In this document: piece after piece, positions 8,550 to 60,264 of the stretch
Layout: the number at the start of each line of letters is the position of its first letter
How positions within the stretch are numbered: position 1 is the first letter of the stretch
DNA from: Candidatus Limicola stercorigallinarum
GTDB lineage: Bacteria; Actinomycetota; Coriobacteriia; Coriobacteriales; Coriobacteriaceae
Length of the DNA: 64,000 bases
Assembly (NCBI GenBank): GCA_018711625.1
Contig: DVID01000009.1
Span: 83,691 to 147,690 of the forward strand
Direction of reading: 5' to 3'
Made by a program: the position numbers and the translations under genes
Notes under the pieces: model-generated
Databases searched by the model: none
What the model saw: the letters and a program-made list of their open reading frames with translations, nothing else
Told to the model about the DNA's origin: nothing

Positions 8550-8669
8550 TATATAGAGCGGTACGGTTGATGGTAAAGCGCGGGGATGGGTATCGCTGAG
8601 CGTCCCAATTGCACGGCGCGCGCAATGGTGCGTTTAACTCCTACGAGTTAGTGTCCTTAGACTGACGTC

Positions 8670-8984
8670 CTAGAGAAAAATGGGGCATGCTGCGCCGTCA
8701 TCGAGGCGTGCCTGTTCGTCGGGGTCAATATGAGGCGGCTCGCCTTCGGCAAAGCGCTTTGAGAGATACGTGATGATGTCGTCCGACTCGTAGAGTGGCG
8801 TGCCGTCAATGAACAGGCATGGCACCTGCACCTTGCCGCCCACTTCCAGCAGGGTTTGACGTGCGGCAGATTCGGCGGTGATGTCACGCTGGTTGAGTGC
8901 GATATCGTGTTGCTCCATATACAGCAACACTTTGCGGCAGTATGGGCAGGTGGGCATGATGTAGAGCACCAGATCGTTGTTCAT
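8670..8984 (-). CDS. Glutaredoxin / GST N-terminal domain protein
   Basis: MNNDLVLYIMPTCPYCRKVLLYME (CPYC active site), VPCLFIDGTPLYESDDIITYL. Confidence 0.87.
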   Translation of the reverse strand: MNNDLVLYIMPTCPYCRKVLLYMEQHDIALNQRDITAESAARQTLLEVGGKVQVPCLFIDGTPLYESDDIITYLSKRFAEGEPPHIDPDEQARLDDGAACPIFL

Positions 8985-9155
8985 GGTTTTCCTTTCACGT
9001 TTAGTTGAAATGCTATGCACTGTGTACCCGTTATGAGGCTACTATGTGCAGATGCTCATGGAGCGACCGTGTGGGATGCAACAATTTGTTAGGGTGCCGC
9101 CACGCGACGGCTAATCTTGATAGCATACGGAGTGACGAATGAGTTGGGAGGCTCC

Positions 9156-9365
9156 GTGTCTGCGTTCACCACATTCATCAAAAGGCATTGGCTTGCCTAC
9201 GTTATTGGCATTGCCCTTGCTGTGGCGCTAGGGCTAGGCGCTGCGTATGTTGTGGGTGTTATAGGATCCACGCCTGAAGAAGAGCAGCAAGCTCAGACGG
9301 TTACCGGTACAGGTAACACGGATGGTACATCCGACACCACAACGGGCGACGTTGCTGCTGAATAA
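9156..9365 (+). CDS. Small single-pass membrane protein of unknown function
   Basis: GTG start preceded by GGGAGG; one TM helix (WLAYVIGIALAVALGLGAAYVVGVIG) then Thr/Gly-rich tail. Confidence 0.55.
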   Translation: MSAFTTFIKRHWLAYVIGIALAVALGLGAAYVVGVIGSTPEEEQQAQTVTGTGNTDGTSDTTTGDVAAE

Positions 9366-9391
9366 CCATCATCACTTTCTATATCGATGTG

Positions 9392-9422
9392 AAACCGCTG
9401 CGTTTTGTTGACGCGGCGGTTT
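9392..9422. terminator. Bidirectional stem-loop between convergent genes
   Basis: AAACCGCTGCG ... CGCGGCGGTTT. Confidence 0.6.
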
Positions 9423-9437
9423 GTTGTATGCAGAAGT

Positions 9438-10304
9438 TTAGGAGCTCGTGGGAGCCCGATTGACCGTAATGCCATAGGAAAGGGTGCGTTGGTCGCGCCA
9501 GGTGGTGTAGCTGCAGGTAACAAAGGTCCACAGCTGCTTGATGTTCTGGGGGTGCGCAAGCACCGCTTCAGATTCAGCGAGTTTCTCGTCAAGCCAGGGC
9601 TGCAGCTCTTCAATGGTCAAGTCGCTGTACAGGCGTTCTTTTGTAGCATCGACAATATTGGCTGCAAAAAGCTCCACGTGAAACGTTGTGGTGGGCGTAT
9701 ACAGGTACACCTGGTTGCAGGAGGCGAGGTGTTCCGGGTCATAGTTGTCGCGCCATGCGGAGAACATTGAACCGTTGAGCTGTTCATGGCCATAGAGTAC
9801 AGGGGAGGCTGCATTGAGACCGTCTGCGGCGTTTTGGGCATCGAGATGGATGGTCCCCTCGTTATTGGGATATGCCACTCTGCCGTCAAAGGTGGTGTGC
9901 AGGTAGCGATCTGGGTCACTGGCGGGTGCCTGCACTACGGGATAATCAATCGGGGTTCCCGGCACATAGATCCAGGCAATGATATCGGGGTTGATGGCGC
10001 GCAGACCATCCCAGTCGATGGCGCGTGTCATAAGAGGGTCGGCGGTACCGTTTGAATCGTCTCGGTTTGACTCAGCCTCCGTGGCGCCCGCTTCTAACGC
10101 TGCGCGCTCCTCGCCAGAGGCTGGTGCCTCCGTCATAGCATCGCGCAGCCTCTCATAGCTATCCATTGCCGCAAGGGATTGCTGCGCCCATGCACCGCCT
10201 ACCGCCGCAAGCATCACGCAAAAGAGCAGGATTGCCATCGCAACGGCAGAAGCTCCGTGTCGATGCGTTGGTGCCGAGAGGGACGTGTATGGTGAGCGAT
10301 TCAT
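9438..10304 (-). CDS. Class B sortase
   Basis: Signal anchor, IIAWIYVPGTPIDYPVVQ, LYGHEQLNGSMFS (catalytic His), LWTFVTCSYTTWRDQRTLSYG (catalytic Cys/Arg). Confidence 0.9.
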   Translation of the reverse strand: MNRSPYTSLSAPTHRHGASAVAMAILLFCVMLAAVGGAWAQQSLAAMDSYERLRDAMTEAPASGEERAALEAGATEAESNRDDSNGTADPLMTRAIDWDGLRAINPDIIAWIYVPGTPIDYPVVQAPASDPDRYLHTTFDGRVAYPNNEGTIHLDAQNAADGLNAASPVLYGHEQLNGSMFSAWRDNYDPEHLASCNQVYLYTPTTTFHVELFAANIVDATKERLYSDLTIEELQPWLDEKLAESEAVLAHPQNIKQLWTFVTCSYTTWRDQRTLSYGITVNRAPTSS

Positions 10305-14037: not shown

Positions 14038-14114
14038 GGACCTGTAGCTCAGTTGGTTAGAGCGTCCGGCTGATAACCGGGAGGTCACAAGTTCGAATCT
14101 TGTCAGGTCCACCA
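14038..14114 (+). tRNA. tRNA-Ile (GAT anticodon)
   Basis: GGACCTGTAGCTCAGTTGGTTAGAGC...CTGATAA...GTTCGAATC...CAGGTCCACCA cloverleaf; encoded CCA. Confidence 0.95.
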
Positions 14115-14125
14115 TTTTCTTTCGC

Positions 14126-14170
14126 AATAAACACCCCACCGAGAGCCGAGTCGCCGGTGGGGTGTTTATT
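14126..14170. terminator. Stem-loop between tRNA-Ile and tRNA-Ala
   Basis: AATAAACACCCCACC ... GGTGGGGTGTTTATT. Confidence 0.75.
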
Positions 14171-14176
14171 ACATGT

Positions 14177-14252
14177 GGGGGTTTAGCTCAGCTGGGAGAG
14201 CGCGGGCTTTGCAAGCCTGAGGTCAGGGGTTCGATCCCCCTAACCTCCACCA
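14177..14252 (+). tRNA. tRNA-Ala (TGC anticodon)
   Basis: GGGGGTTTAGCTCAGCTGGGAGAGCGCGGGCTTTGCAAGCCTGAGGTCAGGGGTTCGATCCCCCTAACCTCCACCA. Confidence 0.95.
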
Positions 14253-14317
14253 GGAATCTTCAACCTCGCTCCGGCGAGGTTTTTTCATAGACGTGTGACG
14301 CGCACGGGATCGAACCC
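14232..14317 (+). repeat. Direct repeat copy A (tRNA-Ala 3' end plus terminator)
   Basis: 86 bp, 83/86 identical to 14419..14504 by manual alignment. Confidence 0.9.
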
Positions 14318-14418
14318 CGGTAGGGGCGCGGAGCGGAGCAAACGCGGGAGCGTTTGCCGCGTAGCGCGCGAGGGCGCGTGAGCGCCCGAAGCGGTTGGAG
14401 CGCGCCGCGGGCGCGCGG

Positions 14419-14504
14419 CGATCCCCCTAACCTCCACCAGGAATCTTCAACCTCGCCCCGGCGAGGTTTTTTCATACACGTGCGACGCGCACGGGATCGA
14501 ACCC
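14419..14504 (+). repeat. Direct repeat copy B (truncated tRNA-Ala 3' end plus terminator)
   Basis: CGATCCCCCTAACCTCCACCAGGAATCTTCAACCTCGC.CCGGCGAGGTTTTTTCATA repeated without the tRNA 5' part. Confidence 0.9.
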
Positions 14505-25009: not shown

Positions 25010-25130
25010 AGGTGGGTGGACGGGGGACGGGGTCATTCCATCCACCCGGGCAGGGGGAGCGGTGCCGTTCCGTCCACCTGGACAGAGGAGAACGGGGTCA
25101 TTCCATCCATCTGGGTGGATGTGCCCTGTT
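25010..25130. repeat. REP-like intergenic repeats (ACGGGGTCATTCCATCCA motif)
   Basis: ACGGGGTCATTCCATCCA occurs twice with an intervening diverged copy (GCGGTGCCGTTCCGTCCACC); related to 44626..44722. Confidence 0.55.
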
Positions 25131-34355: not shown

Positions 34356-34423
34356 GCTAGCTTGTTTTTTCGACGTTGAGGGACGTGTTTTTGCTTCATT
34401 CAACGTCGAAATAACAAGCTAGC
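34356..34423. repeat. Palindromic element copy 1
   Basis: GCTAGCTTGTTTTTTCGACGTTGA ... TCAACGTCGAAATAACAAGCTAGC, 24-bp arms with one mismatch. Confidence 0.85.
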
Positions 34424-42340: not shown

Positions 42341-42432
42341 ATGGCTCGACGCTGCGCGGCCATCTGACGGGCGATCTGAATGGGTCAAAACGAACACGTC
42401 CCCAAATGACCCACACTTGAAAGGAGTTTCTC

Positions 42433-44625: not shown

Positions 44626-44722
44626 TGGATGGATGGGGACGATGGATGGGGACGGGGTCGTTTCATCCACCTGGTGGATGGCGACGGGTCATCCCATCTA
44701 AACGGGGTTACCCCATCTAGCA
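44626..44722. repeat. REP-like intergenic repeats
   Basis: GGATGGGGACGGGGTCGTTTCATCCACCTGGTGGAT... similar to 25010..25130. Confidence 0.5.
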
Positions 44723-47575: not shown

Positions 47576-47657
47576 AGCCGGACGGGGACGGTGCCGTCCC
47601 ACCCCGTCGGGCTGCAAGGCGGACGGGGACGGGGCCGTCCCACCCCGTCGGGCTGCA
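47576..47657 (+). repeat. Two tandem about 41-bp GC-rich palindromic units
   Basis: GGACGGGGACGG[T/G]GCCGTCCCACCCCGTCGGGCTGCA repeated twice. Confidence 0.8.
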
Positions 47658-48419: not shown

Positions 48420-49823
48420 ATGCCCGGACAGGACACCTACGACGATTACCGATGGACGCCAGCGGGAACCGCCGACCGCGCTGCCCATCAGGGCTTGCCC
48501 AACAATCCAGAAGCAGAGGCCAACGTTCTTGCGGCCATGATCCTCTCTCCCGAGGTGGCCACCGATGCCACCGCGGAGCTCCGTCCCGACGACTTCTATC
48601 GTCCCTCCAACCGCACGCTCTTCATGGCCATGATGGAGATGAACGAACGCACCATCCCCATCGATTCCATCTCGCTCATCGACTTCCTCACCTCGGAGGG
48701 CAAGCTTGCCCAGGTGGGTGGCGAGGCATACATTCTCGAGCTCGTGGGTAACACCATCGCGCTCGTGAACTGGCAGCATCATGCGGGTATCGTCCGGCGC
48801 GACTCCATGCTCCGCGAGATTATTGGCGCCACCAACCAGATTAACGCGCTGGCCTACGACGCGCCGCTCGATACCAAAGAGGTCGTGGAGCGCGCCGAAA
48901 GCATGCTGCTCTCCGTTACCGAGCGCGAGGTGTCGAGCGCCTACAAGTCGCTCACCGAGTTCATGATCGAGGCGTACAACGAGGCTTCCGAGGTCTGCGC
49001 CGCCGGCGGGCAGGCGCACGGCGTGCCTACGGGCTTTCCAAGCCTTGATCGCCTTCTGTTGGGCTTCCGCGAGGGTCAGCTCATCATCATCGGTGCGCGT
49101 CCTGCCGTGGGTAAGACGTCGTTCGCCCTCAACCTGGCGCTTAATGCGGCGGCAGCTGGCTACACGGTGGGCTTCTTCTCGCTCGAGATGAGCGGCAAGG
49201 AAATCGCGCAGCGCCTCATCTGTGCGCATGCTATGCTCTCCATCTCGGATTTCCGTACGGGCCGCATCTCGCCCGAGCAGTGGGCCAACATCAACGAGGC
49301 CACGCAGGAGCTCTCAAAGCTCGATATCCTCATCGACGACACGCCGGGCACCACGGTGACCGAGATCCGCGCGAAGGCGCGCCGCATGCTCCACAACAAG
49401 GAGAAGGCCGTTATCATCCTGGACTACCTGCAGCTGGTGAGCCCACCGCCGGGGCGCCGTGCCGAGAACCGTGCCGTCGAGGTGTCCGAGATGAGCCGTG
49501 CGCTCAAGATTATGGCGAAAGATCTGGAGATTCCCCTCATCGCTCTTAGCCAGCTCTCTCGTGCGGTCGAGAGCCGTACCGGCAAGCGCCCGCAGCTCTC
49601 CGACCTGCGTGAATCGGGCTCCATCGAGCAGGACGCCGACATCGTTATGTTCCTGGACCGTTCGTCGGACGAGCATGAGGCGGCGCGCGACGACCGCCCC
49701 GACGAGGGTGTGACGCGCATTATCGTGGCCAAGAACCGTTCGGGCCCCATTGGAGACGTGGACCTGATGTTCCTGCCGGCGAGCACGAAGTTCTACGAGC
49801 TGGACGGCGTGCACGAGCAGTAG
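48420..49823 (+). CDS. dnaB: Replicative DNA helicase
   Basis: LLLGFREGQLIIIGARPAVGKTSFALNLALNAA; VIILDYLQLVSPP; LSQLSRAVESRTGKRPQLSDLRESGSIEQDAD; SD AGGAGGGGAG. Confidence 0.96.
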   Translation: MPGQDTYDDYRWTPAGTADRAAHQGLPNNPEAEANVLAAMILSPEVATDATAELRPDDFYRPSNRTLFMAMMEMNERTIPIDSISLIDFLTSEGKLAQVGGEAYILELVGNTIALVNWQHHAGIVRRDSMLREIIGATNQINALAYDAPLDTKEVVERAESMLLSVTEREVSSAYKSLTEFMIEAYNEASEVCAAGGQAHGVPTGFPSLDRLLLGFREGQLIIIGARPAVGKTSFALNLALNAAAAGYTVGFFSLEMSGKEIAQRLICAHAMLSISDFRTGRISPEQWANINEATQELSKLDILIDDTPGTTVTEIRAKARRMLHNKEKAVIILDYLQLVSPPPGRRAENRAVEVSEMSRALKIMAKDLEIPLIALSQLSRAVESRTGKRPQLSDLRESGSIEQDADIVMFLDRSSDEHEAARDDRPDEGVTRIIVAKNRSGPIGDVDLMFLPASTKFYELDGVHEQ

Positions 49824-49852
49824 GTGTATGCGAGCGGCAAAGATACTCAGAC

Positions 49853-49889
49853 GGGGCGCAGCGCGGGTGGATTTCTCGCGCTGCGCCCC
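49853..49889 (+). terminator. Rho-independent terminator of dnaB
   Basis: GGGGCGCAGCGCG ... CGCGCTGCGCCCC followed by GTTTC. Confidence 0.7.
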
Positions 49890-50120
49890 GTTTCTAGTGG
49901 GGCACTCGCTCCGCTCCCGTTCTTGTTCCCTTGCCCATATTTCTCTTACATGCGCGTCCACCCCCATAGCTCGCCCGCTTGCCGCCCTTGCGGTGTTGCT
50001 CAGCGCAGCGTGCGGATATAATGTGAACGTAAGAATCAAACTGGCCCCATCTGCCGCGAGCGGGTGGGGTTTGAGCTGCGTCGGGGCATATCCGCCGTGG
50101 CGCTCGAGAAGGAGAACGTC

Positions 50121-51407
50121 ATGTCGTCGACAGTGTTGGTCGGAACCCAATGGGGAGACGAGGGCAAAGGTAAGATTTGCGACCTCATCGCCGGGGATTA
50201 CGACTGCGTCGTCAGGTATCAGGGTGGCAACAACGCCGGGCACACCATTGTGGTGGGCGACCGCAAATACGGCCTGCATCAGGTGCCCTCGGGCATCATG
50301 TATCCCAATTGCATCTCGGTGATTGGCAATGGCTGCGTGGTGAACCCTGAGGTGCTGCTCGAAGAGATCGATACCTTTGAGCGCGACGGCATCACCACCA
50401 AGAACCTCAAGGTTTCGGGCAACGCGCACATCATCATGCCGTACCACATGGACCTGGACGGTGCCTATGAGGCGCTGCTGGGTAGTCACAGCATCGGCAC
50501 CACCAAGCGTGGCATTGGCCCGTGCTATCAGGACAAGATGGCGCGCATTGGTCTGCGCATGCAGGACATGCTCGACGAGGACGTGTTCCGCGAGAAGCTT
50601 GCCCGCGCGCTCGACCGCGTGAATCCGCAGCTTGAGAAGCTCTTTGGTCTGCCCACCTACACGGTCGACCAAATCTGCGCCACCTACCTGCCTATGGCCG
50701 AGCGCCTGCGCCCCTACATCACCGAGACGGGTCTGTTGCTGAACGACCTCGTGGAGCAGGGCAAGTCCATTCTTTTCGAGGGTGCCCAGGCTACGCTGCT
50801 CGATATCGACCACGGCACCTACCCCTATGTGACCTCGTCCAACTGCACCGCTGGCGGCGCCGTGACGGGCTCGGGCGTGGGCATGAAGAACATCGACCGC
50901 GTGCTGGGCATCATGAAGGCCTACACCACGCGCGTGGGCGAAGGCCCCATGCCCACCGAGCTTTCGTACGAGAGCGCGGAAGGTCACACCCTCACCGAGA
51001 ATGGCTATGAGTACGGCGTCACCACCGGCCGTCGCCGCCGTTGTGGCTGGTTTGACGGCGTGATTGCCAACTATGCCGCCCGCGTGAACGGCCTCACCGA
51101 TATCGCGCTCACCAAGCTCGATGTGCTTTCGGCTTTCGAGACCATCAAGGTCTGCGTGGCCTATGAGTGCAATGGCGTGCGCTACACCACGGTGCCCGAG
51201 CACGAGCAGGCTTTTGCCGCTGCCACGCCGGTGTACGAGGACGTTCCGGGCTGGTGCTGCGATATCTCAGGCTGCCGCACCTACGACGAACTCCCGCAGG
51301 CGGCGCGCGACTACGTTGCGCGCATCGAGGAGCTGGCGCACACGCGCGTTTCGTTTGTGAGCGTGGGCCCCGATCGCGAGCAGACCATCAATCGTTCTTG
51401 GAAATAA
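50121..51407 (+). CDS. purA: Adenylosuccinate synthetase
   Basis: VLVGTQWGDEGKGKICDLIAGDYDCVVRYQGGNNAGHTIV; VTTGRRRRCGWFD. Confidence 0.97.
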   Translation: MSSTVLVGTQWGDEGKGKICDLIAGDYDCVVRYQGGNNAGHTIVVGDRKYGLHQVPSGIMYPNCISVIGNGCVVNPEVLLEEIDTFERDGITTKNLKVSGNAHIIMPYHMDLDGAYEALLGSHSIGTTKRGIGPCYQDKMARIGLRMQDMLDEDVFREKLARALDRVNPQLEKLFGLPTYTVDQICATYLPMAERLRPYITETGLLLNDLVEQGKSILFEGAQATLLDIDHGTYPYVTSSNCTAGGAVTGSGVGMKNIDRVLGIMKAYTTRVGEGPMPTELSYESAEGHTLTENGYEYGVTTGRRRRCGWFDGVIANYAARVNGLTDIALTKLDVLSAFETIKVCVAYECNGVRYTTVPEHEQAFAAATPVYEDVPGWCCDISGCRTYDELPQAARDYVARIEELAHTRVSFVSVGPDREQTINRSWK

Positions 51408-51527: not shown

Positions 51528-52439
51528 ATGAACAAGTTTGCTGTGGTGACCGATAGCGCAGCCGATATCCCGAGCGACCTGGCGCAGCGTTACGACATTC
51601 GCATCGTGCCGCTCCACGTGGTGATGGGCGACACCGACTACCGCGATGGCGAGGATATTAACACCGCGCAGTTGCTCAAGCTCATGAAGGACGCCGAATC
51701 CCTGCCGCGCACCTCCCAGCCCACACCGGGAGATTTCCTCGAGGTGTACAAGCAGCTTTTCACCGAAGGGTATCGCGAGGTGCTCTCCATCCACCTCTCC
51801 CGCGCGCTGTCCTCCACTATCGAGAGCGCGCGCGGCATTGCGCATGAGATTCCCGAGGGCTGCCGTCTGGAAGTGGTGGACAGCTGCTCGGCCACGGTGG
51901 GGCAGGGCGCGATGGTGCTCGAGGCGGCTCAGGTGGCGCAGGCGGGCGGCACGCTCGACGAGGCGCTTGAGCGCGTGCTCGCCATCCGTTCCGCGCACGC
52001 CATCCATTTTGTGCCCGATACGCTCGAGAACCTCGTGAAGGGCGGCCGCGCCACCAAGATGCAGGGGCTGCTCACGTCGCTGCTCAACATCAAGATCGTG
52101 GTGGGGCTCGCTGCGGACGGTTCCATCGATGTGGAGCACAAGGCCAAGGGCATCAAGGGTGCCATCTCGTATATGGTGAAGGCCGTGGGCCGCTTTGTGG
52201 AGGAGCACGGGCCGGCCGTGTGCTACGTGCTGCACACCAACGCGGCTGCCAAGGCGCAGAGCATCGCCGACGCGCTCGCCCGCGCCGGTGTGAAGGCGCG
52301 CGTGATCACCGAGGCCACGATCGGCCCGGTCATCGCAACGCACGTGGGCGAGGGCGCCTGCGGCGTGTTCTGCTACCCCGAGGCTCTGCACGCCCCCGAG
52401 CTCGATGACATCGCGGCGTACCTCACGCCGGAGTTCTAA
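51528..52439 (+). CDS. DegV-family fatty-acid-binding protein
   Basis: FAVVTDSAADIPSDLAQRYDIRIVPLHVVMGDTDYRDGEDI; RTSQPTPGDF; IHLSRALSSTIESA. Confidence 0.93.
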   Translation: MNKFAVVTDSAADIPSDLAQRYDIRIVPLHVVMGDTDYRDGEDINTAQLLKLMKDAESLPRTSQPTPGDFLEVYKQLFTEGYREVLSIHLSRALSSTIESARGIAHEIPEGCRLEVVDSCSATVGQGAMVLEAAQVAQAGGTLDEALERVLAIRSAHAIHFVPDTLENLVKGGRATKMQGLLTSLLNIKIVVGLAADGSIDVEHKAKGIKGAISYMVKAVGRFVEEHGPAVCYVLHTNAAAKAQSIADALARAGVKARVITEATIGPVIATHVGEGACGVFCYPEALHAPELDDIAAYLTPEF

Positions 52440-52501: not shown

Positions 52502-52571
52502 CACCAGCTTGTTTTTTCGACGTTGAATGCCCTATTTTCGGCCCCTTCAACGTCGAAAAAACAAGCTGGTG
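52502..52571. repeat. Palindromic element copy 2
   Basis: CACCAGCTTGTTTTTTCGACGTTGAA ... TTCAACGTCGAAAAAACAAGCTGGTG, perfect 26-bp arms, 18-nt loop. Confidence 0.92.
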
Positions 52572-52608
52572 CATTTTGAAGTGCTGCCGCACGGGATGCG
52601 GCGAACCA

Positions 52609-53670
52609 TCACAGCTCGATGGGAGGTGCGGGCGTGGTCCAGCTCCGGCTGCCATGCGGCAGGTCGGGCCGTGGGGCGGTTGCGCGATAGTCGTGGCCGG
52701 TGAGTGTTTCGGCGGTGACGCCTGCCTGCGCGAGCATCGCGACCAGACGTCCCGGGGTCCACACGTCGCGCATGGTGAATCGTACTATGGGCATGCGCAG
52801 CAGCGTGAGGTGTGATTCGCGCTGGCGTTCCCGCACCAGTGCATCGACGGTGCTCCTCCCGTTGAGATAGCGCGGTTCGACGTATTTTTCCATCCCGTCG
52901 AGTTCGCCCACTACGCGCGAGCCATCGCGCAGGTTGAAGAGGAAGTCGACGCGCGGACGGCGCCATAGATCCATGGGGTCGACGAACGTCACCTGGAGGT
53001 CGCTAGGCGCGATACCCGCTTCAATCATGACAGCGCGAGCGATGGACTCGCCGCCGCTTTCGGCCCGTCCGTCCGCCCAGGCAGCAATCTTGTGCGCGCG
53101 CCGCACGCCGCGGTAGCCGGGAGCGTGGGCATCAATGAAGCCGTCGAGCATGGGTCGCTCGACATCAAGCATGCGAAGCGTTGCATCCATAACCGCGAGC
53201 GCCTCGGAGAAGGGTAGCGTACGGCCGCAGTCGACCACCGTCTGCGTGAGGGTGGTCACGCGAACGCCATCTCGTATCGCGTGCTCTGGATTCAGCTTCA
53301 TATGTCGCTGCAGGTGCGCTGTGGTTCTGACAGGACGTTTGCTCGGGGTGATGACATGCAGTGGCAACAGGGGGCCTTCGTTCACGGGGAGGCTGTGTGC
53401 GAGCGCAGCGCTCCGTCCGCAAAACACTAGGTGAGGATTTCGCTCGGTGAGTGTGCGCATGACAAACATCGAGCGGTCGCGTGCGGAGAGGCGCTGCCAC
53501 AGCTCGGCACTTGCAAAGAGCTGAGGATACGGTTCGACAACGGTGCCCGCCCGAACGCGTCCCCGCAGTGTTCGGGTGTCGCGCGGGTCGGGCGCGGCGC
53601 AGCGGCCCTGCTCAAACGCCTCTGCAAGCAGAGTGTTAAGCCGCTGGTCCACATCGCGTCGCGTCCTCAT
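52609..53670 (-). CDS. AbiEi-antitoxin-like / DUF559-type (PD-(D/E)XK-like) protein
   Basis: C-terminal RPRVDFLFNLRDGSRVVGELDGMEKYVEP...VRERQRESHLTLLRMPIVRFTMRDVW resembles DUF559/Vsr-like domains; N-terminal VFCGRSAALAHSLPV and TLTQTVVDCGRTLPFSEALAVMD typical of orphan AbiEi-like actinobacterial proteins. Confidence 0.65.
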   Translation of the reverse strand: MRTRRDVDQRLNTLLAEAFEQGRCAAPDPRDTRTLRGRVRAGTVVEPYPQLFASAELWQRLSARDRSMFVMRTLTERNPHLVFCGRSAALAHSLPVNEGPLLPLHVITPSKRPVRTTAHLQRHMKLNPEHAIRDGVRVTTLTQTVVDCGRTLPFSEALAVMDATLRMLDVERPMLDGFIDAHAPGYRGVRRAHKIAAWADGRAESGGESIARAVMIEAGIAPSDLQVTFVDPMDLWRRPRVDFLFNLRDGSRVVGELDGMEKYVEPRYLNGRSTVDALVRERQRESHLTLLRMPIVRFTMRDVWTPGRLVAMLAQAGVTAETLTGHDYRATAPRPDLPHGSRSWTTPAPPIEL

Positions 53671-53936
53671 CGCATCTCCTTACCGCGGCGCTGGGAGTCC
53701 ACGCCGTCCCGGGTGCGCGATACGGGGTGGAGCAAGCTCTTCTTGGTGCGAGGCTCTCGCCGCGTCGCGCGTTTCAGCTATTGTGCGCCCGATGACGGCG
53801 TGCGATGTATGCGGCGCTTCTCAACGGAGTCCATCCATCTGCCTACGGTAAAAGTGTCAGAAAAGGCCGCGGATCTTGTGTACGCGGGCTGCACGGGATG
53901 TGCTGGCCGCGTTGGCGGCGTCCATGCCGGCCGATG

Positions 53937-54010
53937 TGCACCAGCTTGTTTATTTGACGTTGAAGGGGCTGAAAATAGAGCGTTCAACGTCGAAAAAACA
54001 AGCTGGTGCA
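53937..54010. repeat. Palindromic element copy 3 (inverted relative to copy 2)
   Basis: TGCACCAGCTTGTTTATTTGACGTTGAA ... TTCAACGTCGAAAAAACAAGCTGGTGCA, 26/28 arms; loop GGGGCTGAAAATAGAGCG resembles reverse complement of copy 2 loop. Confidence 0.9.
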
Positions 54011-54175: not shown

Positions 54176-55480
54176 ATGACCACCGATTCTCAGACCATCG
54201 ATATTCTGCTGTTGGGCAGCGGCGGGCGCGAGCATGCGCTGGCCATGAAGCTGGCCGAGTCGTCGCGCTGTGGCACGCTCTACATTGCGCCGGGCAATGG
54301 CGGCACGCTCGAGGTGGGCGTGAACGTAGCGCTCGCCGAGGACGATCCCGAGGCTGTGGCGGCTTTCGCGCGTGAAGAGGGCATCGGCCTAGTGGTGATT
54401 GGCCCCGAGGCTCCGCTTGTGGCCGGCGTGGCCGATGCGGTGCGTGCCGAGGGCATCCCCTGCTTTGGCCCGGGGGCTCAAGGTGCGCAGATGGAGGGCT
54501 CCAAACTCTTTTCCAAGCAGCTCATGGAGCGCGCGGGTATTCCCACGGCGGCGTATGGCTCGTTCACCGACGAGGCGTCGGCCCTCGCGTACGTGCGCGA
54601 GCAAGGGGCACCGCTTGTGGTGAAGGCGGACGGCCTTGCTGCTGGTAAGGGTGTTATCGTGGCCACCGAGCTTGCCCAGGCCGAGGAGGCCGTGCGCGAG
54701 TGCTTTGGCGGCGCCTTTGGTGAGGCGGGCTCGACCGTGGTCATCGAGGAGATGCTCACCGGCCCGGAGTGCTCGCTTCTGGCGTTCACCGACGGCAAGA
54801 CGGTGCGTCCCATGGCCACCTCGCAAGACCACAAGCGCGCCCTCGAGGGCGACCTCGGCCCCAACACGGGCGGCATGGGCGTGTACAGCCCGGTGCCCAT
54901 CGTCACGCCGGAGGAGCACGCCGAGATGGAGCGCATCATGGCGGCAACGGTGGCGGAGCTCGCCGCCGAGGGCATCGATTACCGCGGCTGCCTGTATGGC
55001 GGCTTCATGCTCACGCCCCAAGGCCCCAAGGTGCTCGAGTTCAACGCGCGCTTCGGCGACCCCGAGACCCAGGTGATCCTCCCGCGTCTCGAGAACGATC
55101 TCGTGGAGGTCATGCTCGCGTGCGCGGAGCAGCGTCTGGACGAGGTCGAGCTCGCATGGAGCGACAAATGGGCCGTCTCGGTGGTGCTCACGAGCGCCGG
55201 TTATCCGGGTTCATATGAGAAAGGCAAGGTCATCACCGGTGTCGAGGACGCCGCCGCGCTGGAGGACGTTACGGTGTACCACGCCGGCACCGCGGTGAAC
55301 GAGGCGGGCGAGCTCGTGACGGCAGGTGGCCGCGTCATCGACGTGACGGCGCTCGGCGACACGTTCGAAGCCGCGCGCGACCGGGCGTATGAGGCGTGCG
55401 AGAAGATTCAGTTCGAGGGAAAGACGCTGCGCCGCGACATTGGCCTGCGCGCGCTCAAGGGGCGTTCTGCCTGGGAGTAG
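54176..55480 (+). CDS. purD: Phosphoribosylamine--glycine ligase
   Basis: ILLLGSGGREHALAMKLAESSRCGTLYIAPGNGGT; PNTGGMGVYSPVPI; VLEFNARFGDPETQVILPRL. Confidence 0.96.
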   Translation: MTTDSQTIDILLLGSGGREHALAMKLAESSRCGTLYIAPGNGGTLEVGVNVALAEDDPEAVAAFAREEGIGLVVIGPEAPLVAGVADAVRAEGIPCFGPGAQGAQMEGSKLFSKQLMERAGIPTAAYGSFTDEASALAYVREQGAPLVVKADGLAAGKGVIVATELAQAEEAVRECFGGAFGEAGSTVVIEEMLTGPECSLLAFTDGKTVRPMATSQDHKRALEGDLGPNTGGMGVYSPVPIVTPEEHAEMERIMAATVAELAAEGIDYRGCLYGGFMLTPQGPKVLEFNARFGDPETQVILPRLENDLVEVMLACAEQRLDEVELAWSDKWAVSVVLTSAGYPGSYEKGKVITGVEDAAALEDVTVYHAGTAVNEAGELVTAGGRVIDVTALGDTFEAARDRAYEACEKIQFEGKTLRRDIGLRALKGRSAWE

Positions 55481-55890: not shown

Positions 55891-58800
55891 ATGGCGTTGC
55901 TTGCGGTGTTGCTGGCGTGCCCCGTGGCGGCGATTGCCGTGGAGGGTGACACCGACACGCAGCCGGGTACCGTGCAGGGCTTCACGCCGGGCGGCACTAC
56001 TATCAACCTGTTCGACTACTGGATCACGGGACAAGATGCCGCCGACAATGTCAACTGGGTTGACGAGCACGCGAATCGAGGCATCAACAAGGGGCATACC
56101 CTCAATTTTGGCAAGGGTATGGAGGGTGGCGAGCGTGGCGCTAACGAATGGACGCAATCTGCCGAGCCGCGCATCGGGCTCGTCGCGAATAAGCTGAATG
56201 AGGACGGTTATCCCGTCCTTGAGGTAGGAAACAAAGAGTCTCTCGCGTACCTGTTCAATCCTGAATCGTTTGAGGGCAAGCAGGCATACAGCAATGTCGG
56301 AAACCTGCTGCAGGTCGACAATACCGGCTATTTCTATTACGACTGCAAGGCGAATTTCGCAGAGTTTGATGCCGAAGACAATGCGTTCACGCTTTACGAT
56401 GGCGGAGCCGTCAATGCCTATGGCTCTTCACCGGACGGCCAGTTCTTCCCCTTCAACACGTATAATCAGGTCGCGGGCGAGAACATCGACTCGGTAAACG
56501 AGGTCATCAAACATTACTTCGGTATGACGATGCGCACCCGTTTTGTGCAGCAGAACGGCGGTCACACCACGCCTGATGAAGATCAGGCCGTCACCTATAA
56601 CTTCTCCGGCGACGACGACATCTGGATCTTCATCGACGGCGTGCTTGTGGGAGACCTAGGCGGTATTCACGACGCCACGTCTATCGAGATCGATTTCTCG
56701 ACGGGCATGGTGCGTGTCTACGATGACGGCGCAAAGAACGACGACGCCTACAAAGACACCTCTCTCAACAATGAGTGGGACGAGGGCGAGAAGGTCTACA
56801 ACGGTGGCGGCCAGGGCGAGACGCTCAGGAGCATCTTCGAGGACGTTTACGGTGTGGGCAATGTCCCCAAAGGTCTTTTCAACGAGGGTGGCGACACCTT
56901 CGCCGACAATACCTATCACACGCTTGACTTCTTCTATCTCGAGCGCGGCAACACCGACTCCAACATGGCGCTCAAGTACAACCTGATCAACATCCCCGAG
57001 ACCGACATCGTGAAGGTCGATCAAGACGGCAATCCCGTTGCGGGCGCCGAATTCAAGCTGTACGACCGCGCCGCCTATGCGCAGAACAGTGGGGTGACCC
57101 CGCTCGCGTCCGCCGTGACGGAGGGCGACGGCAGCGTGGTGCTCCTTGACCCCGACAATACCAACCGCCCCATCACGCTCGAGAGTCTATGGGAGCATGT
57201 GGTTGAGGAAGGAAGCGGTGCGACAACCTGCGACCTCATGCTGGTGGAGACGGATGTGCCTGCCGGCCACCGCGTGGCGCAGAAGATTCCGCTGCAGATT
57301 CTGAAGAAGGAAAAAACCGAAGGCGACCCCTTCTACCTGCTGCTCTCCAAGGATCCCTGGACGACGGGCGCCTACGCGATGCCCAAGGTCATGCTCACGG
57401 CGCCGGAGGAGACCAGCATCCAGGTAGAGCCTCTTTCGGATAACTCGACCATCTCTCAGAACGTGTTGCAGAAAGGCGATATCCAAGACGGCCTTCTGTT
57501 CGCCATTGTCGAGAAGAAGGTGGGCGATGGGTGGCTCCCGGTGTACGGCGACCCGCTGAACGGCTGGGCGGTGGCGGAGACGCTGGACGCCAGCACCGTT
57601 ATCGCAGCCGCTAAGGCCACACATGCCCAGTTTGCACTCGACACCACGGGCAGCTTCCGCGCCGAGGTCAACAGCCTGCCCGGTGACATTCTCAAATACT
57701 CCTTCTTCACGGGCGAGAAGGATGCGGAATACCGCGGCGCCTACTTCTATTCAACGGCGAAGACCTTCGACGGCATCGAAAAAGAGAACACGGCGACGGT
57801 GACCAATCCCGAGGCATTCACGCGTAATTTCTCGGCGCGTGTCTGCGTGTCCAATATCATCAACCGCTTTGCCGTGCAGAAGCTTGATGAGAAGGGCAGC
57901 CCGGTGGAAGACGCCACGATGGCGCTATACACAAACGACCAGGTGACGGTCGACAAGAACGGTGTGGCGACCCTCAATGATGAGAGCGCGGAGCCGTTGC
58001 AGACCGCGACTACCGCAACCCTCACCAAGGAAAATGCCGCCATTGACCTTGAGGGTGCCTGCATCTTCACCAATCTCAATCCCGGCGTGTACTGGGTGGG
58101 CGAGCAGGTGTCGCCCAAGGAACCTTCTGACGCTGATCCAAACGGCTATCTCAAGAACAACACGCTCGCCAAGGTGCTCGTCACCGACGACGGCGTATTT
58201 GCTGACGCCGGTAAGGCCGGCGACGGCGTGACCGTCATGCGCGGCGTGGGCCGTGTGATGCGCTCGATGGTGCAGTTTGCCGTTGCGGACGATATCGACG
58301 TCACGCTGCACAACATCGTGGCGCAGGCACGCATGGGCACGGTGGTCACTAACGAAGCGGGTGACACTTCGATTGAATGGGGCGCTCCCGACCCGGAGAG
58401 TGAACTCCATCTGCAGTATGCCGGTGATGGCGATCGCGTTTTGGACTACACGACCGATGCAAGCGTATCGGATGAGGAGCTTCAAAGCGCATCGGAGTAT
58501 TACACCGTCGACGAGGGCGTGCCCGGGTTGGTGGTCAACCAGTGCGCGAAGCATAAGGTCGAGAGCGAAGCTGCCTGGACGCCCCTCGTTGAAGACGATA
58601 AAACCCCGATCGATATCACGCCGCTCTTCACCGGCGTGAACGTCGTGCGGATTGCAAACCAGCGCGTGAGCGGTCTCGATGTGACGAAAAAGGTGACCGC
58701 CGATGATCCCACTGCCGTCGGCTCCAACGACGAGTTCACCTTCACCGTGCGCTTCACGAATCCTGTCGGCGCGGACGGGCTTGCAACGCCGTTGACGCAG

Positions 58801-60264
58801 GAGCAGGCCGAAGCGGTAGACATGGGTGTAGTCGCGTTCGAGACGGCACCCACTGGCTCAATGGCGACAAGACCGGTCAAACTCGAGAGCGACGGCTCCG
58901 TCAAGGTGACCATCAAGGCCAATGAGACGGCGCGCTTCGTGAACGTCCCCGTGGGCACGACGTATACGGTAATCGAGGAACCGTGCGACGGGTACGTGCT
59001 GAGTGACAAGTCGGAAGACATGACCGGCACCATCGCGTTTAGCGACCAAAGAGCGGTAGCCACGGCAGTCGTGAAAAACATCAAGGTCGATGGTGCCACG
59101 GCGGCTATCGATGTTCAGAAGACCGTCACGGGCACCGAGACCACGGACAACTTCACGTTCACGATTGCACTGTCCAGAGAGACGGATGAGGGCATCCGTG
59201 ATGGCGTGAGCGTTATGCGCGATGGGCGGCTGCAGTCGATTGGCACCGATGATGTCACCATCAGCCCGGTCACCGTCACCGCGGACTTCGCCGAAGGCCA
59301 CCAGACTCAGCGGGCTTCATCTGAGCAGCTTGTTTTCACCGAAGAGAGGACCTACATCTTCGACGTCAAGGAGACGGTCACGGACAAAAAGCCCAACTGG
59401 ACGTATGACAGCGCATCCACTCGCAAGGTGACGGTGGTTGTTGAACGGGAATCCGATACCGATACGCAGCTGACGGCGGAGGTCATCTACAACAACAGTA
59501 ATGCCCCCCAAGAAAATGACAAACGGGTCGGTGATGCAGCGGCGTTCACCAACGTCTACACCGCTCCTACGACGACGGCACAGATTAAGGCCGTCAAGCG
59601 TCTGACGGGCGACTCTGCAACGCTCCTCGCCGATCAGTTCGCCTTCGAACTGCGCGACAAGGACGGCAAGCTCGTTGCCGACGCCAAGAATGATGCCGCG
59701 GGCAACGTGACCTTCGACGCCAACACCTATGACGCAGACGGCATCTATACCTACACCCTGCGCGAGGTCCTGCCTGACGATGACGACGACGTCACACCGG
59801 GTATCCAGCAGGACGGCTTCACCTACGACGAGACGATCTATCGCGTCTCGGTGAGCGTGAATGTCAACGAGCAGGGTGGACTCACCGCCGTGGTGACCTA
59901 TAACGAAGGCGCCGACGGTACGGGCAAGGCGGTCGACACGCCTGTGTTTGAGAACGCCTACACCAAGTGGGGTGGTGGTGACCCCGTCATACCGGATGAC
60001 CCCAACCCGGACACGCCGGACCCCGACGAGCCCGATCCCGACACACCCGATCCGGACACTCCGGATCCCGACACTCCGGATCCCGAAACCCCAGATACCC
60101 CCGATCCCGACACGCCGGGCACGCCAGACGGGCCCGACCCCAATACTCCCATCGACAAGATTCCTGGCACGGGTGACGCCATGCCGGCCATGGTCGCGGG
60201 CGTAGCGGCGCTCGGCGCGGTGTGTATCGCAGGGGCTGTCGTACTCAAGAAGCGGAGTGAATGA
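55891..60264 (+). CDS. Large fibro-slime/Cna-B-like cell-wall-anchored surface protein; N-terminus out of frame across the G9 tract
   Basis: YYDCKANFAEFDAEDNAFTLYDG and GDDDIWIFIDGVLVGDLGGIHDATSIEIDFSTG...YHTLDFFYLERGNTDSNM fibro-slime motifs; several Cna-B/SpaA-type repeats; (PDTPDPDTPDPD)n wall region; IPGTGDAMPAMVAGVAALGAVCIAGAVVLKKRSE LPXTG-like signal. Confidence 0.88.
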   Translation: MALLAVLLACPVAAIAVEGDTDTQPGTVQGFTPGGTTINLFDYWITGQDAADNVNWVDEHANRGINKGHTLNFGKGMEGGERGANEWTQSAEPRIGLVANKLNEDGYPVLEVGNKESLAYLFNPESFEGKQAYSNVGNLLQVDNTGYFYYDCKANFAEFDAEDNAFTLYDGGAVNAYGSSPDGQFFPFNTYNQVAGENIDSVNEVIKHYFGMTMRTRFVQQNGGHTTPDEDQAVTYNFSGDDDIWIFIDGVLVGDLGGIHDATSIEIDFSTGMVRVYDDGAKNDDAYKDTSLNNEWDEGEKVYNGGGQGETLRSIFEDVYGVGNVPKGLFNEGGDTFADNTYHTLDFFYLERGNTDSNMALKYNLINIPETDIVKVDQDGNPVAGAEFKLYDRAAYAQNSGVTPLASAVTEGDGSVVLLDPDNTNRPITLESLWEHVVEEGSGATTCDLMLVETDVPAGHRVAQKIPLQILKKEKTEGDPFYLLLSKDPWTTGAYAMPKVMLTAPEETSIQVEPLSDNSTISQNVLQKGDIQDGLLFAIVEKKVGDGWLPVYGDPLNGWAVAETLDASTVIAAAKATHAQFALDTTGSFRAEVNSLPGDILKYSFFTGEKDAEYRGAYFYSTAKTFDGIEKENTATVTNPEAFTRNFSARVCVSNIINRFAVQKLDEKGSPVEDATMALYTNDQVTVDKNGVATLNDESAEPLQTATTATLTKENAAIDLEGACIFTNLNPGVYWVGEQVSPKEPSDADPNGYLKNNTLAKVLVTDDGVFADAGKAGDGVTVMRGVGRVMRSMVQFAVADDIDVTLHNIVAQARMGTVVTNEAGDTSIEWGAPDPESELHLQYAGDGDRVLDYTTDASVSDEELQSASEYYTVDEGVPGLVVNQCAKHKVESEAAWTPLVEDDKTPIDITPLFTGVNVVRIANQRVSGLDVTKKVTADDPTAVGSNDEFTFTVRFTNPVGADGLATPLTQEQAEAVDMGVVAFETAPTGSMATRPVKLESDGSVKVTIKANETARFVNVPVGTTYTVIEEPCDGYVLSDKSEDMTGTIAFSDQRAVATAVVKNIKVDGATAAIDVQKTVTGTETTDNFTFTIALSRETDEGIRDGVSVMRDGRLQSIGTDDVTISPVTVTADFAEGHQTQRASSEQLVFTEERTYIFDVKETVTDKKPNWTYDSASTRKVTVVVERESDTDTQLTAEVIYNNSNAPQENDKRVGDAAAFTNVYTAPTTTAQIKAVKRLTGDSATLLADQFAFELRDKDGKLVADAKNDAAGNVTFDANTYDADGIYTYTLREVLPDDDDDVTPGIQQDGFTYDETIYRVSVSVNVNEQGGLTAVVTYNEGADGTGKAVDTPVFENAYTKWGGGDPVIPDDPNPDTPDPDEPDPDTPDPDTPDPDTPDPETPDTPDPDTPGTPDGPDPNTPIDKIPGTGDAMPAMVAGVAALGAVCIAGAVVLKKRSE

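Follow-up and report, generated by a model that had tools for sequence, protein, structure and literature searches.

The window analysed here, a stretch of 64,000 nucleotides from Candidatus Limicola stercorigallinarum (family Coriobacteriaceae), carries between degV (51528–52439, plus strand) and purD (54176–55480, plus strand) a sole gene, a minus-strand open reading frame (ORF) encoding 353 amino acids (52609–53670). Two hairpins frame it. Copy c2 (52502–52571), in which a perfectly paired 26-bp stem closes an 18-nt loop and which scores 93.6 bits with model R1, sits between two convergent genes, 37 bp beyond the stop codon of the enclosed gene; copy c3 (53937–54010), with a 26/28-bp stem and an 18-nt loop, sits in the divergent region between the start of the nuclease-like gene and purD and is separated from the start codon by a 266-bp leader (53671–53936, minus strand), a 5′ spacing similar to that at other loci. 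The initial annotation had described both hairpins, their stems and the single enclosed gene as they stand here, and its view that the copies are inverted is borne out by a 72-nt inverted repeat of 93% identity, the direct alignment being poorer. Folded as single-stranded DNA, c2 reaches −30.9 kcal/mol (z = −12.3) and c3 −28.8 kcal/mol (z = −10.2), with no shuffled sequence equalling either. A solitary, extragenic copy of the same hairpin family, c1, lies at 34356–34423, and the 12-mer TTCAACGTCGAA, allowing at most one mismatch, occurs 7 times in the window versus 0.29 expected. The only known RNA families detected in the window are tRNAs.

The window also holds repeats of other kinds. A GC-rich family (GGGGACGGGGTC...ATCCACC) occurs in tandem or scattered form at 25022–25115, 44647–44675 and 47576–47657, two tRNA genes lie beside an 86-bp direct duplication of 97% identity (14038–14504), and a 1,457-aa repetitive surface-type protein with a Pro-Asp-rich repeat tail is encoded at 55891–60264.

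The 353-aa protein combines an N-terminal helical, wHTH-like part (residues ~1–185) with a C-terminal PD-(D/E)XK-like domain (~186–325). An alignment of 58 homologues contains 15 invariant positions, including E208, S209, R212, Q226, D242, E256, D258, G259, K262, E281, R284, E285 and R297, and these give the invariant pattern E...D...ExDGxxK, which in the window protein we take to be the PD-(D/E)XK active site. The AlphaFold2 model is confident (pLDDT 92), and a Foldseek search with the C-terminal domain placed TnsA, R2 endonuclease and I-Bth0305I on top (the last with a probability of 0.93 and a TM score of 0.65 on the target) and Vsr lower, all with E values of 0.03 or above. Assignment of this domain to the PD-(D/E)XK nucleases is likely rather than proven, since the invariant residues and the model speak for it but the Foldseek matches are individually weak (best E = 0.03). 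The window protein matched no Pfam or NCBIfam family, and no sequence relation to solved structures was detectable; a Y1 (IS200-like) HUH domain was likewise absent from the Pfam matches, and no invariant histidine pair occurs among the 58 homologues. The earlier label ‘AbiEi/DUF559-like’ keeps weak support from PADLOC, which reports AbiEi over 48 residues only (E = 0.0015), and gains none for the window protein from NCBIfam or, with Pfam's gathering cut-off as the bar for DUF559, from Pfam; among the 58 homologues, Pfam AbiEi_4 appears weakly in three and DUF559 (PF04480) weakly in two. The absence of an AbiEii partner is upheld, with only degV and purD adjoining the gene.

Of 67 genomes from the host family, 62 encode homologues, mostly one to six each, as do 16 of 71 genomes in a class-wide sample, the latter all within three families of one order (Coriobacteriales). 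Among plasmid and phage records, homologues were encountered in a single Collinsella entry classed as a plasmid and, as a partial match, in one unannotated phage record; the Collinsella aerofaciens record NZ_OY725717.1 (899,693 bp), filed as a plasmid, is probably chromosomal.

We took 80 homologue loci with flanks of up to 5 kb and counted a gene as bracketed when copies of a repeat lay both upstream and downstream of it, each no more than 600 bp away, and scored 35 bits or more as a pair. By this measure 47 of 81 homologue loci are bracketed versus 2 of 300 shifted windows, and stricter controls gave 1 of 118 for the remaining ORFs at these loci and 0 of 29 for degV loci. Among homologues less than 60% identical the count is 38 of 65 (Fisher P = 1.6e-31 versus shifted windows), and such a pair also flanks the gene at 6 of 9 loci from two more families of the Coriobacteriales. 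Hairpins scoring at least 18 reach a density of 0.29 per kb in the 700 bp next to the gene versus 0.031 per kb more than 2 kb away, an approximately ninefold difference. Where the bracketing is clearest, the 5′ copy precedes the start codon by ~200–400 bp and the 3′ copy follows the stop codon by ~40–150 bp, and the bracketing repeats are usually long hairpins with a stem private to the locus. Approximately 40% of homologue loci show no repeat pair above threshold, so the gene does occur with one or no hairpin, a pattern that the initial annotation had named as contrary to its reading, but the excess of bracketing over the controls is too large for chance. Hairpin bracketing is a real property of this gene family. 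Its orientation is another matter: the best repeat pairs at loci below 60% identity are direct in 29 cases and inverted in 9, which makes both fixed terminal inverted repeats and the inversion cassette suggested earlier for the window unlikely, the inverted arrangement being no general feature.

A loop motif, GGGGC-n-AAAA-nn-GGGC, looks real in the close homologues L118 and L122 and in L144 (P ~0.01–0.04 each), and we rejected it as a family-wide feature because most other loops do not match. The sole bracketed control ORF (L146:8459–9828, ORF 8646–9671) has a weak match to PF18741 REase_MTES_1575 / DUF559 and is framed by 66-bp hairpins with the loop GGGGCCGAAAT-CGGGC; no relation between it and the protein family of the window was detectable, and a second nuclease family may share hairpin bracketing.

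Within its own genome, the window hairpin is a dispersed repeat. A covariance model built from ten copies and searched against the 1.96-Mb assembly recovered 11 copies, all extragenic. The genome-wide search for the palindrome that the initial annotation had called for thus yields further copies, and further genes bracketed by it did not emerge: most copies are solitary, and c2 and c3 are the only ones of the 11 that enclose a single gene. The closest relative of c2 is c3 (93%), followed by copies at 88% and 86%. The stem covaries, with five pairs changed on both sides and a score of 0.141 versus 0.104 for shuffled alignments, and the alignment of ten copies has no constant GTAG-type tag at the stem foot. 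At the same threshold the congener G001 contains no copy of the window hairpin, and the congener G002 yields three weak matches that represent a different stem around a similar loop.

This privacy extends to other genomes. When ten bracketing hairpins from ten genomes were joined into one query and searched in those same ten genomes, each was found at several distinct places at home (16, 10, 9, 9, 7, 6, 6, 6, 5 and 4 sites; sum 78), and only five matches crossed between genomes, four of them those of the G045 hairpin in G022. The latter genome has four copies of the G045-type hairpin, and the G045 gene was not seen there. The genome of the window itself encodes a second, intact homologue between tmk and topA (L041:2197–3177), framed by a 114-bp inverted repeat of 96% identity (L041:2043–3604) whose hairpin differs from that of the window. 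A hairpin scan at the paralogues of this genome with a score cut of 13 returned none, and it was the pair test that showed L041 to be bracketed; the same test was borderline for the paralogue at L042 (37 bits) and negative for that at L043.

Orthologous loci in Collinsella differ in hairpin number and in whether the gene is present. The gene at L159 and orthologous loci is flanked on either side by an array of ~62-bp hairpins with a period of 79–82 bp; one array has one to five hairpins and the opposite one has one to four. The array spacers, ~20 bp long, recur between units and species, which makes the arrays BIME-like; a CRISPR array, in which spacers are unique, is ruled out. Three species have no gene at this locus and retain hairpins alone: G007 and G010 each have a single hairpin, 97–98% identical to the right-hand one, that abuts both flanks, and G011 has two. 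Recombination between repeats is the simplest cause of this loss. The 17 orthologues at the L159-type locus have a median dN/dS of 0.13 (maximum 0.29), and hence the protein is kept by purifying selection there. A dispersed copy could be traced at a single Collinsella site; it is old, being shared by all species, and no fresh insertion. Hairpins at two Collinsella sites (L198/L199 in G042, compared with G008 and G017) fall at the ends of an apparent 12-kb rearrangement, which looks as if it arose by recombination between hairpins.

The block in the window was most likely gained in this lineage. The gene is missing at this position from every one of 28 relatives in which a DegV orthologue is clear, and degV and purD adjoin directly in 27; the remaining locus, L079, has no purD match. 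The presence/absence comparison proposed by the initial annotation hence found the whole block missing from this site in 27 of 28, and of its suggestion of a mobilised cargo unit the gain in this lineage stands. Passive cargo looks unlikely, because the gene's homologues have hairpins that differ from one locus to the next and recur at other places in the genome concerned. The homologues nearest to the window gene (44–50% identity) reside in other genera, and those in congeners are 34–45% identical. The degV–purD spacers of the relatives are too diverged to align, leaving the exact joint unreadable, and a joined-flank search found the Collinsella sites occupied or rearranged. With no target-site duplication and no precise empty site at the sites examined (degV–purD and Collinsella), the transposition step is unproven.

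The genome also contains one RAYT-like Y1 gene, of 264 amino acids (L045:4790–5803; G000 C44, ~49789–50802), framed by hairpins of its own (GGGTCAGTTGGGGACGTGTTCCATCTGACCC) that are unrelated to c2 and c3 and have further copies in the genome. This pair is a classical REP–RAYT system beside the new one, and a repeat related to its hairpins occurs in the window at ~42383–42403. The Y1/RAYT-type gene that the initial annotation had proposed to look for is thus present in the genome but framed by a different repeat, and genes similar to it are absent from all 80 homologue loci.

Gene and hairpins are associated with each other, the hairpins are dispersed privately within each of ten genomes, arrays vary, loss of the gene leaves hairpins behind, the window block is most likely a lineage-specific gain, and nuclease-type residues are constrained. 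We consider the best explanation, on balance, to be that the block is one member of a widespread two-part system in which REP/BIME-like extragenic hairpins are paired with a single gene whose protein recognises them. Under this two-part arrangement, the N-terminal part of the protein would bind the cognate hairpin and the C-terminal PD-(D/E)XK-type domain would cut at or near it; repair or replication of the cut could then spread hairpin copies, preferentially near the gene, giving rise to arrays, and the gene would sometimes end up between two copies. Such spread would resemble that proposed for RAYTs acting on REPs, with a different chemistry. The fuller version of this proposal, that a wHTH plus PD-(D/E)XK nuclease multiplies and disperses its own hairpins, while hairpin stem and protein co-diverge in three families of the Coriobacteriales, we put forward more tentatively, as a serious possibility of somewhat lower standing.

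Other readings are less probable. Another enzyme, a RAYT or some other transposase, might spread the hairpins, with the gene as cargo or as an insert that favours hairpin arrays; a RAYT is indeed present in the genome, the repeat pairs are mostly direct, as expected for a gene landing in or beside an existing repeat, and insertion sequences that target REPs exist, for example ISPpu9 (PMC8450116). We regard this as rather unlikely, given that the sole RAYT has its own hairpins and has no counterpart in the 80 homologue loci, and that the hairpin changes from locus to locus while the protein family stays the same, unlike what a shared third enzyme would produce. Alternatively, the protein might be an AbiEi-like DNA-binding regulator and the hairpins its operators, the flanking copies serving autorepression and the dispersed ones a small regulon. 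The weak AbiEi matches (PADLOC E = 0.0015; Pfam AbiEi_4 in 3 of 58 homologues) fit this, and AbiEi is reported to be both an antitoxin and a regulator of its own operon (PMC3985639). An operator role sits poorly with a copy past the 3′ end of the gene and with the placement of the 11 genomic copies, only c3 being clearly between divergent genes and at least four lying between convergent ones; the nuclease-type residues, invariant in 58 of 58 homologues, also speak against it, and the long covarying stems exceed the need of a dimer operator, all of which makes it unlikely in our view.

The combination of nuclease and AbiEi-like features, the lineage-specific gain and loss, and the short tandem arrays beside the gene could also be read as a defence or addiction module, with the nuclease as toxin or anti-phage effector and the hairpin arrays as antidote, decoy or self-marker, comparable to type III toxin–antitoxin arrays. 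The hairpins, however, are dispersed at up to 16 sites and stand on both sides of the gene, and dispersed copies and two-sided bracketing are not known as features of type III arrays; there is, moreover, no partner gene, and the PADLOC AbiEi matches are weak, so we hold such a module to be improbable. Least probable of all, and by our judgement very improbable, is that the hairpins serve as standard bidirectional terminators shielding a gene that arrived by horizontal transfer. The position of c2 between two convergent genes would suit a terminator, but c3 occupies the divergent region from the gene start to purD, no terminator-like site was called at c2 or c3 by a scan that allows loops of 3–8 only, and terminators would not be locus-private in stem yet common to both sides.

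The preferred reading, a hairpin family with its own recognising protein from a hitherto undescribed nuclease-like family of gut-dwelling Coriobacteriales, suggests that a second kind of enzyme, unrelated to RAYT, stands behind ‘REP’ hairpin repeats. REP-type palindromes are common bacterial repeats. So far an enzyme is suspected only for the RAYT-linked ones, and CGTC, a large class, was explicitly reported without a dedicated transposase (PMC3733652). If the reading is true, orphan REP-like repeats gain a candidate enzyme from a second, unrelated protein family, and orphan AbiEi/DUF559-like genes, now annotated as hypothetical, gain a role. The full-text literature searched, with subscription journals and preprints largely outside its coverage, contained no prior report of this link between gene and hairpin.

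Several known systems share individual traits with the one described here. The predicted C-terminal fold and the E...D...ExDGxxK pattern recall TnsA, I-Bth0305I, Vsr and R2 endonuclease, from whose solved structures the protein differs in having no detectable sequence relation, and to our knowledge none of these enzymes has been reported with a dispersed hairpin family. The AbiEi antitoxin of the type IV toxin–antitoxin system AbiE (PMC3985639) has weak profile similarity to the N-terminal half; unlike AbiE, the gene here has an extra nuclease-type domain and hairpins and no AbiEii toxin beside it, and since this toxin partner is missing, the system is not AbiE. TIRtrons, in which RAYT genes lie within long terminal inverted repeats (PMC3733652), are alike in their long inverted repeats, which in some cases belong to a repeat family, and differ in their protein family and in that most pairs here are direct; the lack of a fixed repeat orientation means that the present system is not a TIR transposon. 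The closest parallel in layout is RAYT/TnpA_REP with its REPs, BIMEs and REPINs (REPtron; PMC3733652, PMC8266576, PMC8049555), where, as here, one gene is framed by palindromes, the same palindromes are dispersed extragenically and private to the genome, arrays are variable and the gene is under purifying selection (here at the one locus tested). Unlike RAYTs, the protein family of the window is not Y1/HUH, its hairpins have no consistent GTAG tag, and its stems are mostly longer (26 bp in the window, versus 20–40 bp in total for REPs). The system in the window is organised like RAYT–REP and is not a member of it, because its protein falls outside the Y1/HUH enzymes and the only RAYT of the genome goes with other hairpins.
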